Assembly (NCBI RefSeq): GCF_000482545.1
Contig: NZ_KI519454.1
Location: forward strand, 1,710,954-1,774,953
Origin: Arthrobacter sp. 35W
GTDB lineage: Bacteria; Actinomycetota; Actinomycetes; Actinomycetales; Micrococcaceae
DNA length: 64,000 bases
Direction of reading: 5' to 3'
The position numbers and the translations under genes are program-made. Of this stretch, positions 26,895-29,720 are shown in pieces; position 1 is the first letter of the stretch; each line of letters opens with the position of its first letter. The notes under the pieces are model-generated. The model did no database searches and was not told where the DNA came from. It was given only the letters and a program-made list of their open reading frames with translations.

Positions 26895-27491
26895 ATGGTG
26901 GGAATCATTTCGCGTGGTTTTCATGGCAAGCGGCAGACAACCAATGACAAGCTGCCCCCCGGCCAACATGGAACGGGAGACTTTCCCGTGCTGACGGCCG
27001 GCCCGGCACCGGACGTCGCCACCCGGGATTGGGAATTCTTCATCACCACCGAGGCGGGCAAACGCCACGCCTGGTCGTGGGAGCAGTTCATGGCGCTGCC
27101 GCAGATCGACATCCGCAACGACATCCACTGCGTCACCAGCTGGTCCAAGCTCGGGACCTCGTGGCGTGGAGTGTCACTGGATACCTTGTTCGAGCAGGTG
27201 GACACGTCGTCCAAATTCACCATGGCCCACTCCTACGACGGCTACACCACCAATGTCCCCCTGGCGGACCTCCTCGGCGGCCAGTCCTGGGTGGCGTGGG
27301 AATTCGACGGCGAACCCCTCGAGCGGGCCCACGGCGGACCGGCCCGGCTGCTGGTCCCCCACCTGTACTTCTGGAAGAGCGCAAAGTGGGTCCACGGCCT
27401 TGAACTGATCCCGCGCGACGTTCCAGGCTTCTGGGAATCCAACGGCTACCATCTGCACGGCGATCCGTGGCGCGAGGAGCGCTACTCGTGA
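26895..27491 (+). CDS. Cytoplasmic molybdopterin-dependent oxidoreductase (sulfite oxidase/YedY fold)
   Basis: A 198-residue protein consisting only of the oxidoreductase molybdopterin-binding domain. The HCVTSWSKLG motif supplies the conserved Mo-ligating Cys, and GGPARLLVPHLYFWKSAKWV matches the family core. No Tat or Sec signal and no dimerisation domain are present, so it should act in the cytoplasm. The ATG follows CGGAGGTGC closely; a GTG one codon later fits spacing slightly better. It heads an operon with a flavin reductase and a DUF6510 protein. Substrate unknown. Confidence 0.88.
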   Translation: MVGIISRGFHGKRQTTNDKLPPGQHGTGDFPVLTAGPAPDVATRDWEFFITTEAGKRHAWSWEQFMALPQIDIRNDIHCVTSWSKLGTSWRGVSLDTLFEQVDTSSKFTMAHSYDGYTTNVPLADLLGGQSWVAWEFDGEPLERAHGGPARLLVPHLYFWKSAKWVHGLELIPRDVPGFWESNGYHLHGDPWREERYS

Positions 27492-27501
27492 GCCGCACCA
27501 G

Positions 27502-28236
27502 GTGAGCACCACGTGGCGCGTTGCCGACGTCGTCAGCGGCATGCCCGAAAATGACACCGCCCGGACCATTGGACTGAAGGTGGCGGGGTTGGACGGCAGC
27601 CTCCCCGGACAGCACATCGACATCCGGTTGACCTCCGATGACGGGTACTCTGCCGTGCGGTCCTACTCCGTGGCGGCGGCCGGCATGGACGGCCTTTTGC
27701 AGATCACCGTCGACGAACTGGCCGACGGCGAAGTCTCCCCGTATCTGGTGCGTGAGCTGGTGGTCGGCGACCAATTGGAGATCCGCGGCCCCGTCGGAGG
27801 CTGGTTTGTCTGGCTGCCCTCGGACCCGAACCCCGTCCAGCTGATTGCCGGCGGATCGGGCATCGTGCCGCTGATGTCGATGATCCGCGCACATGAGGCC
27901 TCGACGAATCCGTCCCGGTTCCGGCTGCTGTACTCGCTCAAATCGCCCGAGGCAGGGTTTTACCGCTCCGAACTGGAAACCCTGGGCCGGGAGTCCGGCA
28001 GGCTCGCGGTGGACTACGTCTACACCCGTGCCGTGCCGCCCGGCTGGTCTCATGCACCGCAACGGCTCACCGCTGAATCCCTGTTGGCAAGCATCCTGCC
28101 GGCCGATGCCGCCCCGGAGATCTTCATCTGCGGCCAGACGGTGTTTGTCGAGACCGTCTCGGAATGGCTCGTCCAGGCGGGCTACCCAACGTCGATCAAG
28201 ACCGAACGCTTCGGCGGAACGGGAGGCAACCGGTGA
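27502..28236 (+). CDS. FAD/NAD(P)-binding reductase (ferredoxin-NADP reductase superfamily)
   Basis: A 244-residue FNR-type reductase. The FAD domain has SAVRSYSVAAA, and the NAD(P) domain has IAGGSGIVPLMSMIR, FICGQTVFV and the terminal IKTERFGGTGG. No 2Fe-2S domain is present. It most likely passes electrons from NAD(P)H to the molybdoenzyme encoded 10 nt upstream, by analogy with other two-component molybdenum reductases; that is inference. It starts at GTG and overlaps the DUF6510 gene by 4 nt (GTGA). Confidence 0.88.
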   Translation: MSTTWRVADVVSGMPENDTARTIGLKVAGLDGSLPGQHIDIRLTSDDGYSAVRSYSVAAAGMDGLLQITVDELADGEVSPYLVRELVVGDQLEIRGPVGGWFVWLPSDPNPVQLIAGGSGIVPLMSMIRAHEASTNPSRFRLLYSLKSPEAGFYRSELETLGRESGRLAVDYVYTRAVPPGWSHAPQRLTAESLLASILPADAAPEIFICGQTVFVETVSEWLVQAGYPTSIKTERFGGTGGNR

Positions 28237-28580
28237 CCGGCAGGCACAGCTCAGGCACGCCGGGATCCGGGGAGCCGCGCTTCGACGACAGTGACATCGC
28301 GGCAACCGTGGGCAATCCGATACCCCATCTCGACGGCAATGCCGTGGCGGGGATGATGGGGGAACTGTTCCGCATCGACATCATCGCGGCGATTGGCCGG
28401 TGCCGGCATTGCGGCGCCGAACACGCCTTCGGCGAGGCCGTGGTCTACACCGATGCCCCGGGCATCGTCGTCCGCTGCAGTTCCTGCCAGGGCGTCCTGC
28501 TGCGCCTGGTCGAGACGCCCACGCAGTACTGGCTCGACGTCAGCGGCCTCAGCCATCTGCAGATCGACCGCGAGCCCTAG
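28233..28580 (+). CDS. DUF6510 family zinc-ribbon protein
   Basis: A 115-residue protein with the family's LDGNAVAGMMGELF segment and two CxxC pairs (GRCRHCG and VRCSSCQGVLLRLV), which probably bind one zinc ion. The GTG start at 28233 has GGGAGG 6 nt upstream and overlaps the reductase stop. The function of DUF6510 is not known. Its linkage to molybdopterin oxidoreductase and FNR-type genes suggests it is part of that redox complex or helps assemble it. Confidence 0.85.
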   Translation: MTGRHSSGTPGSGEPRFDDSDIAATVGNPIPHLDGNAVAGMMGELFRIDIIAAIGRCRHCGAEHAFGEAVVYTDAPGIVVRCSSCQGVLLRLVETPTQYWLDVSGLSHLQIDREP

Positions 28581-28593
28581 ACGGCCAACGCAA

Positions 28594-28628
28594 ACGGCGG
28601 GCCCCACCACACTGGTGGGGCCCGCCGT
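28594..28628. terminator. Bidirectional terminator between the DUF6510 gene and terC
   Basis: A perfect 16-bp GC-rich stem (28594-28609 with 28613-28628) and a 3-nt loop. It lies 13 nt past the DUF6510 stop and 45 nt past the terC stop, which converge here. Confidence 0.9.
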
Positions 28629-28673: not shown

Positions 28674-29720
28674 CTAGACGAGGGACTTGTTGTCCTCGCC
28701 GGCAGCAGCAGCCTCGGCGTCGGCCTTCAGCCGCGCGTCGATCTTGGCCTGCTTGCCAGCGGGGCTGAGCAGGCTGGCCACCACGGCGATGGCCATGGTG
28801 CCGAGGATGATGCCCAGGGACACGAACGTCGGGATCTCCGGAGCCCACTCAATGTGCTGGCCGCCGTTGATGAAGGGCAGTTCGTTGACGTGCATCGCGT
28901 GCAGCACCAGCTTGACGCCGATGAAGGCCAGGATGACGGACAGCGCGTGCTTGAGGTAGACCAGCTGGGTCATCAGACCGCCGAGCAGGAAGTACAGCTG
29001 GCGCAGACCCATCAGGGCGAAGATGTTGGCGGTGAAGACGATGAAGGCACTCTGCGTGAGGCCGAAGATGGCCGGGATGGAGTCCACGGCGAAGAGCAGG
29101 TCGGTGACACCGATGGTGATGAAGACGATCAGCATCGGGGTGAAGACCTTCTTGCCGTCAACGACGGTGCGGACCTTGGTGCCGACGTACTTGTCGCTCA
29201 TGGGCAGAACCTTGCGCAGCTTGGCAATGAGCGGGTTCTCGGCGCCCTCTTCCTCGTCGCTGCCGTCATCCTTGGCCTGCTTGTAGGCGGTCCAGAGCAG
29301 GAAGGCACCGAAGATGTAGAAGACCCAGCTGAACTGCTCGATGACGATGGCGCCGAGCAGGATGAAGATGCCGCGCAGGATGAGCGCGATCACGATGCCC
29401 ACCATCAGCACACCCTGCTGGAGCGGCTTGGGCACCGAGAAGCGGGCCATGATGATGATGAAGACAAACAGGTTGTCAATGCTCAGGCTGTATTCGGTGA
29501 CCCAGCCGGCCACAAACTGGCCACCGTATTCGGGGCCGGTGAAGGCGAACATCAGACCGGCGAAGACCAGGGCCAGGGCGACATAGAAGGCGACCCACAG
29601 GCCGGATTCCTTCATCGAGGGGGTGTGGGGGCGCTTGATCACAAGCAGCAGATCGGCCAGCAGAATCAGACCGAGGACGGCAAAAGCGCCGATTTCAAAC
29701 CACAGGGGTAACGTAGGCAC
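28674..29720 (-). CDS. terC: TerC-family membrane protein, probable Mn2+ exporter
   Basis: A 348-residue integral membrane protein with about nine helices. The two TerC Asp motifs sit within membrane segments (EYSLSIDNLFVF, about 79-90, and LLFAVDSIPAIF), separated by a charged cytoplasmic loop. TerC proteins are linked to tellurium resistance and, more recently, to manganese export or metalation of secreted enzymes. The GTG start has AAAGG 8 nt upstream. A yybP-ykoY-like manganese riboswitch in the leader supports the metal role. Confidence 0.93.
   Translation of the reverse strand: MPTLPLWFEIGAFAVLGLILLADLLLVIKRPHTPSMKESGLWVAFYVALALVFAGLMFAFTGPEYGGQFVAGWVTEYSLSIDNLFVFIIIMARFSVPKPLQQGVLMVGIVIALILRGIFILLGAIVIEQFSWVFYIFGAFLLWTAYKQAKDDGSDEEEGAENPLIAKLRKVLPMSDKYVGTKVRTVVDGKKVFTPMLIVFITIGVTDLLFAVDSIPAIFGLTQSAFIVFTANIFALMGLRQLYFLLGGLMTQLVYLKHALSVILAFIGVKLVLHAMHVNELPFINGGQHIEWAPEIPTFVSLGIILGTMAIAVVASLLSPAGKQAKIDARLKADAEAAAAGEDNKSLV

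Follow-up and report, generated by a model that had tools for sequence, protein, structure and literature searches.

A candidate soluble molybdoenzyme and flavin reductase pair with a probable DUF6510 accessory protein in Arthrobacter sp. 35W

The analysed stretch (the window) comprised 64,000 nucleotides of Arthrobacter sp. 35W (contig NZ_KI519454.1, positions 1,710,954 to 1,774,953). Three genes run head to tail on its plus strand between positions 26895 and 28580. The first (26895..27491, ATG to TGA, 198 aa) encodes a molybdopterin oxidoreductase, referred to as MO, which matched PF00174 (Oxidored_molyb) with 116.1 bits against a cut-off of 24. It is followed after a gap of 10 bases by a gene for an FNR-type FAD/NAD(P)H reductase, referred to as FNR (27502..28236, GTG to TGA, 244 aa), and then by a DUF6510 gene (28233..28580, GTG to TAG, 115 aa; PF20120, 108.8 bits against a gathering cut-off of 26.4). 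The FNR stop and the DUF6510 start share the four bases GTGA (28233..28236), and translational coupling of the two genes through this overlap is likely. The operon-like row of three genes with its last two overlapping, as described in the initial annotation, was confirmed.

An AlphaFold model of MO (pLDDT 83.6) was compared with the PDB using Foldseek. Forty-five matches were obtained at E ≤ 0.001; ranks 1 to 38 were enzymes of the sulfite oxidase (SUOX) family and ranks 39 to 45 were pterin-binding PruR proteins. The best match was SoxC (E 4e-11), followed by chicken sulfite oxidase, sulfite dehydrogenases, E. coli MsrP (1xdq) and yeast nitrate reductase. Judged by this predicted model, MO is a sulfite-oxidase-fold molybdopterin oxidoreductase. 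Cys79 lies in an HCVT motif that was kept in 125/125 related MO rows (106 from the FNR-paired and 19 from the solo subfamily, described below); it aligns with the Cys of MsrP and is presumed to be the Mo ligand. Kyte-Doolittle hydropathy in a 15-residue window reached a maximum of 0.47 in the first 50 residues of MO; for E. coli MsrP the corresponding maximum, over its first 60 residues, was 1.41. By the same measure, which is one of hydropathy and not a signal-peptide predictor, a hydrophobic N-terminal segment was absent from the 106 paired MO rows (maximum 0.93). Because it has no hydrophobic leader, unlike MsrP, MO should be cytosolic. Three further PF00174 genes are present in the host genome, with the motifs CAGNGR (L001, sulfite-oxidase-like), CVSN (L002) and CVEGWS (L004); by eye, L002 and L004 have hydrophobic N-terminal regions.

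Two Pfam domains were found above cut-off in FNR, PF00970 (FAD_binding_6, 40.6 bits) and PF00175 (NAD_binding_1, 41.6 bits), and no 2Fe-2S ferredoxin domain was among its Pfam matches. Its closest solved relatives were the FAD domain of MmoC and an NADH-cytochrome b5 reductase.

The pairing of MO with FNR was assessed in 396 actinobacterial genomes. These were searched with an MO profile, with up to eight candidates scored per genome, and 132 genomes matched at 1e-40. The scores fall into two groups, and the dividing line of 275 bits was set after the gap between 275.9 and 262 bits had been seen. The upper group (at least 275 bits) comprised 50 places in 44 genomes. FNR adjoined MO at 49 of these places, and the 50th ends at a contig end with the start of FNR present. 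In the lower-scoring, solo sister subfamily, FNR was found in 0/19 sampled loci, and the solo rows were placed on one side of a branch with support 100/98 in an MO tree of 123 rows. When FNR was counted instead, 53 places scored at least 160 bits; 49 adjoined an upper-group MO and one a broken MO (G254). Among the named loci, the 80 highest-ranking of 594 relatives of MO, FNR lay directly behind MO in 78, the exceptions being L102, at a contig end, and L097 (Rhodococcus ruber). From these counts, FNR is a dedicated partner of the upper-group MO subfamily, in a near-obligate pairing with rare losses. MoaA was found in 43/44 genomes with a paired MO and in 330/396 overall (P 0.003), a weak fit to a Mo enzyme. 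The initial annotation had described a SUOX-fold protein without signal peptide, a flavin reductase free of 2Fe-2S and a soluble set distinct from MsrPQ, and each of these descriptions was borne out. The solo subfamily (L178 to L195 and L197) occurs in many of the 396 genomes.

Plasmid loci were also inspected. Nine were picked out of a listing of 30 among 529 records, and two of the nine were chosen because their listed entries already contained FNR; they are therefore examples and not a sample. MO-FNR was present in 9/9, two of them with broken frames, and a locus on an E. coli plasmid carries MO-FNR as well. The broken or sequence-error frames affect MO and FNR in Acinetobacter (L126:10004-11343) and FNR in S. 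meliloti pSymA (L125:8629-9358), with two frames in each case. On viral contigs a single relative was found, cut at its contig start. No MO-FNR gene fusion was noticed, and no systematic search for one was made. A frame of approximately 880 aa (L201:1902-4538) seems by eye to combine a FAD-dependent Rossmann oxidoreductase with an FNR module and a C-terminus of 2Fe-2S-like appearance; the FNR search gave comparable long frames in several more actinobacterial genomes. The MO of L052, recorded as Planococcus sp. APC 4015, is nested among Microbacterium on the tree, and the record is probably mislabelled.

DUF6510 was found above cut-off in 28/396 genomes, 27 of which carry a paired MO (Fisher P 4e-29, kinship ignored). 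Conversely, among the 44 genomes with a paired MO it was present in 27 and absent in 17. Of 30 DUF6510 loci, including that of the window, 28 were ordered MO-FNR-DUF6510; in one of these (L032) MO and FNR are in broken frames. The other two are L013, where DUF6510 follows MO without FNR, and L024, which begins inside FNR. DUF6510 was present in 60/80 named loci, including four from Chloroflexi, and the order MO-FNR-DUF6510 recurs in 60/80. Such recurrence is far beyond chance, and chance adjacency of the three genes was rejected. In the plasmid collection, DUF6510 was found in 10 records, nine actinobacterial and one from Gemmatirosa, where it lies approximately 1 kb from an MO match; none was proteobacterial, and all nine examined MO-FNR plasmid loci, described as proteobacterial, were without it. 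The trio label required 11 changes on the MO tree, so DUF6510 has been lost or gained repeatedly. Given the absence of DUF6510 from 17/44 genomes and from the nine proteobacterial plasmid loci, catalysis probably does not require it. The proposal that the three genes form one redox unit was accordingly upheld only in part: DUF6510 is found almost only with MO-FNR, but the pair frequently occurs without it.

A substitute for DUF6510 was sought as frames of at least 50 codons with CxxC..CxxC or DGN within 1.8 kb. Of the 20 named loci that lack DUF6510, 18 were covered (L066 and L102 being truncated), together with locus L013. Apart from the DUF6510 that L013 itself yielded, only unrelated frames were obtained.

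In the DUF6510 alignment, D-G-N, one Gly and four Cys were invariant in 30/30 rows, in agreement with the two CxxC pairs of the initial annotation. Both CxxC pairs were kept in 60/60 copies from the named loci and DGN in 59/60. A model of DUF6510 (pLDDT 83.4) gave no PDB match at E 0.001 or better with Foldseek. The best VIA-align match was to S27e (Z 4.4 over 52 residues, rmsd 2.5), and an unrelated chain of the dynactin complex scored equally; no rubredoxin was among the matches listed. The weak fold matches included S27e zinc ribbons and proteins of the cereblon, Yippee and Mis18 kind, along with unrelated chains. Profile searches gave weak zinc-ribbon and HypA matches, with Zn_ribbon_4 weakly matched by 16/30 members. 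These matches suggest a zinc-ribbon accessory, which is likelier than an iron site.

The gene upstream of the three encodes an alpha/beta hydrolase, for which no match at E 1e-10 was found among 126 related loci. Downstream lies a convergent TerC-family gene (28674-29720). In addition to the window, TerC-family genes lie close to the trio in 6/126 related loci (L065, L067, L071, L074, L084 and L089), five of them from Micromonospora. Between the convergent DUF6510 and terC genes is a strong, terminator-like hairpin without a T run (28594..28628, strand undefined), with a 16-bp stem; the 80 nt folded gave -57.6 kcal/mol (z -4.8). This hairpin was not among the terminator-like sites of a consensus scan, which returned zero sigma-70-like promoters at the locus and one terminator-like site, inside FNR, at about shuffle level. 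To look for a fourth gene that recurs in the operon, reading-frame stretches of at least 80 codons from the 126 loci (11,209 in all) were grouped by single linkage. Three clusters occurred in more than 13 loci, the trio itself plus two antisense to it, and no other family exceeded this number.

Gene neighbours that bear on function were found on proteobacterial plasmids, where MO-FNR without DUF6510 often lies among oxidant-repair genes (msrA, msrB, osmC, glutaredoxin, ergothioneine). On P. aeruginosa pAFM-PA19-3158, the following genes stand in a row: msrA, selO, msrB, a gene for an OsmC protein, DUF427, a mercuric reductase homologue, MO, FNR, egtB, egtD and a MOSC gene. Plasmids of Sphingomonas, Acinetobacter, Klebsiella and E. 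coli (pKPC-bca9) carry different combinations of msrA, msrB, glutaredoxin, glutathione S-transferase, CorA, TlpA-like and DUF427 genes, the pKPC-bca9 stretch being without msr. A Comamonas plasmid has related genes and an OsmC-type protein, with no msr in the stretch examined. In Mesorhizobium, OsmC and peroxiredoxins are present, and an msrB lies at the margin of the stretch. In R. leguminosarum, OsmC is 5 kb away and no msr was found; in S. meliloti neither was found. The repair-gene islands with MO-FNR are those of Klebsiella, Pseudomonas, Acinetobacter, Sphingomonas, Comamonas and E. coli (L121, L122, L126, L127, L128 and L206). A near copy of the Klebsiella MO-FNR pair was present in 1/5426 E. 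coli genomes.

In the named loci, msrA and msrB were both found within 7 kb of MO in 5/80 (L059, L095, L097, L104 and L113), and msrB alone in L088. Neither gene was found in 18 further paired loci or in the 19 solo loci (approximately 0.1 expected). With a background of 58 msrA genes across 60 genomes totalling 257 Mb, 0.24 msrA would be expected in the 1.05 Mb covered (P 5e-6, or 1e-4 at doubled density, kinship ignored). In L059 (Microbacterium sp.), msrB and msrA lie behind the trio on the same strand. In L097 (5734-7594), an MO without FNR or DUF6510 is adjacent to, and divergent from, msrB-msrA. That methionine sulfoxide reductase and thiol-redox genes are associated with MO-FNR suggests that the pair serves in detoxification or in the repair of oxidant damage.

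On this basis a mechanism can be proposed. MO and FNR would form a soluble, cytosolic two-component reductase. FNR would take hydride from NAD(P)H onto its FAD, and electrons would pass directly from this FAD to the Mo-pterin of MO, without haem or iron-sulfur. With these electrons MO would reduce an oxidised substrate, either a small molecule or a group borne by a protein; the most likely candidate is a sulfoxide or a related compound formed under oxidant or reactive-chlorine stress. DUF6510, probably a C4 zinc ribbon, would have an accessory part in assembling, loading or bridging the pair in the majority of the actinobacterial and Chloroflexi copies, and other copies would do without it. 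We infer the electron flow, its reductive direction, the substrate class and both the role and the metal of DUF6510; the direction and the substrate class are read from gene neighbours only. Taken as a whole, a soluble NAD(P)H-FAD-Mo reductase for oxidant damage with DUF6510 as accessory is preferred tentatively, with a confidence that stops a little short of even.

Several observations weigh against this proposal. The Glu of the MsrP motif (CVE) is replaced by Thr (CVT) in MO. Three FNR places stand alone (G248:C140, G139 and G433), and MO occurs without a nearby FNR in R. ruber L097 and on a plasmid of Streptomyces NBC_01497. On the latter (L204, L205), MO and DUF6510 are 124 kb apart, and no FNR lies within approximately 5 kb of either; the DUF6510 gene there is near an IS5 element. 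In L013:3-665, at the contig start of a draft genome, DUF6510 directly follows MO with no FNR between them. No msr gene is nearby in 74/80 named loci or in 18/18 further paired loci. The window matches none of 21 island-gene queries, and the msrA of the host genome is approximately 0.48 Mb from the trio. The plasmid islands are partly of one lineage (L121, L126 and L128) and the MO sequences of L097 and L104 are sisters on the tree, so the msr and island counts are not independent.

A first alternative is that MO and FNR reduce another oxidised group, such as an N-oxide, nitrate, a hydroxylamine-type compound, chlorate or a natural product, in the manner of eukaryotic nitrate reductase or mARC. 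Eukaryotic assimilatory nitrate reductase consists of a SUOX-fold Mo domain and an FNR-type FAD/NAD(P)H module, the same folds as in MO and FNR, and its Mo domain was found at ranks 34-35 among the Foldseek matches of the MO model. A MOSC-domain gene stands in one island, and the actinobacterial neighbourhoods are varied. Against this, no cytochrome b5 domain was present among the Pfam matches of MO and FNR, and no nitrogen-metabolism neighbour was recognised, the recurrent neighbour clusters being unannotated. A substrate of this kind is considered somewhat unlikely.

Electrons might instead flow in reverse, with MO oxidising cytosolic sulfite or another reduced sulfur compound and FNR passing the electrons to NAD(P)+. 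The reducing power of sulfite suffices for NAD+, and MO has the SUOX fold, with its best Foldseek E-values to SoxC and sulfite oxidases. The scores of MO were nevertheless far below the cut-offs of the SorA, SorT and SoxC equivalogs (21-31 bits against 420-600). No dimerisation domain was among the Pfam matches of its 198 residues, and its motif is CVT rather than the CAGNGR of the sulfite-oxidase-like paralogue L001. The telling neighbours, where present, are sulfoxide and thiol repair genes. In a transcriptome of Gordonia NB4-1Y, as outlined in PMC7661421, a gene annotated as 'sulfite oxidase-like oxidoreductase', which may be another paralogue, was up with organosulfur compounds as sulfur source; this would favour sulfur oxidation. 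Overall, oxidation by reverse flow is improbable.

A third alternative concerns DUF6510, whose two CxxC pairs could hold an Fe(Cys)4 site of the rubredoxin kind that bridges FAD and Mo, in place of the haem of nitrate reductase or MsrQ. The CxxC(G)...C(P)xC spacing and the four Cys invariant in every row would suit such a site, as would the weak match of 5/30 members to zf-ChsH2 (described as rubredoxin-like). A FAD-to-Mo step without an intermediate cofactor is also unusual, which counts in favour of a carrier. The remaining weak profile and fold matches were, however, mostly to zinc ribbons, HypA and S27e, and many MO-FNR pairs lack DUF6510. A redox carrier is therefore regarded as very unlikely. 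The same low standing is given to a more ambitious scheme in which the trio would be a bacterial sulfoxide reductase of the NAD(P)H-FAD-Mo type, soluble and free of haem, with components that parallel those of eukaryotic nitrate reductase. In this scheme, DUF6510 would provide an Fe(Cys)4 or regulatory Zn site between FAD and Mo, replacing cytochrome b5 or MsrQ, and the system would spread on plasmids without DUF6510 as a cytosolic oxidant-defence module.

It is scarcely credible that MO and FNR are mere neighbours, with FNR serving another acceptor, or that MO binds pterin without Mo like PruR: the lone FNR places, the lone MO of L097 and the PruR matches at the lowest ranks are outweighed by adjacency at 50/50 places in whole genomes against 0/19 sampled sister-clade loci, by the invariant presumed Cys ligand and by SUOX enzymes surpassing PruR in E-value.

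The soluble reductase with an accessory DUF6510 thus remains the preferred interpretation. Public annotation already names its parts as 'sulfite oxidase-like oxidoreductase', 'ferredoxin reductase' and 'DUF6510 family protein'. The parts are therefore known; no description of the MO-FNR pair, and none naming DUF6510, was found in the literature as judged from titles and the starts of abstracts (subscription papers lay outside the search). The near-obligate FNR gives an uncharacterised cytoplasmic SUOX-type enzyme a plausible and testable electron donor. The plasmid islands with methionine sulfoxide reductases suggest that the module is mobile and acts in cytosolic repair or detoxification. If electron transfer is direct, the pair would provide a FAD-to-Mo link without haem or iron-sulfur in the SUOX family.

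The components were compared with known systems. DUF6510 resembles C4 zinc ribbons (HypA, S27e, DmmA-like C-terminal domain) in its two CxxC knuckles and in its weak profile and fold matches; it differs in that all of these matches are weak (Z at most 4.4) and in its N-terminal DGNAxAG motif, which lay outside the matched stretch in most profile-search rows. Compared with eukaryotic nitrate reductase, MO and FNR are encoded by separate genes, no cytochrome b5 or dimerisation domain was found in the Pfam matches, and DUF6510 is present in many copies of the locus.

As outlined in the 2020 review PMC7759655, the SUOX family is split into YedY-like enzymes, a sulfite-oxidising group with the nitrate reductases, and uncharacterised single-subunit, cytoplasmic enzymes. 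MO looks like part of this last branch ('group 3' of the Kappler classification); it shares with it a small size, a probable cytoplasmic location and an occurrence in environmental bacteria. By description, which is the level of the comparison, group 3 is single-subunit; MO has no leader but does have a conserved partner gene.

A further likeness is to E. coli MsrPQ with Fre, in which a SUOX-fold Mo subunit linked to the repair of oxidised methionine can be fed from NAD(P)H via flavin (PMC6211008, PMC11031084). According to the same sources, MsrP is exported and receives its electrons from MsrQ, a haem protein of the membrane. MO is leaderless, is 25% identical to MsrP, carries CVT in place of CVE and scored 38.3 bits against the MsrP equivalog NF003767 (cut-off 207). 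At the locus, to which this comparison applies (MsrQ was not searched for elsewhere in the genome), the partner gene beside MO encodes a soluble FNR with PF00970 and PF00175 rather than MsrQ. By this comparison, MO-FNR is best described as an analogue of MsrPQ and not as a member of that system.

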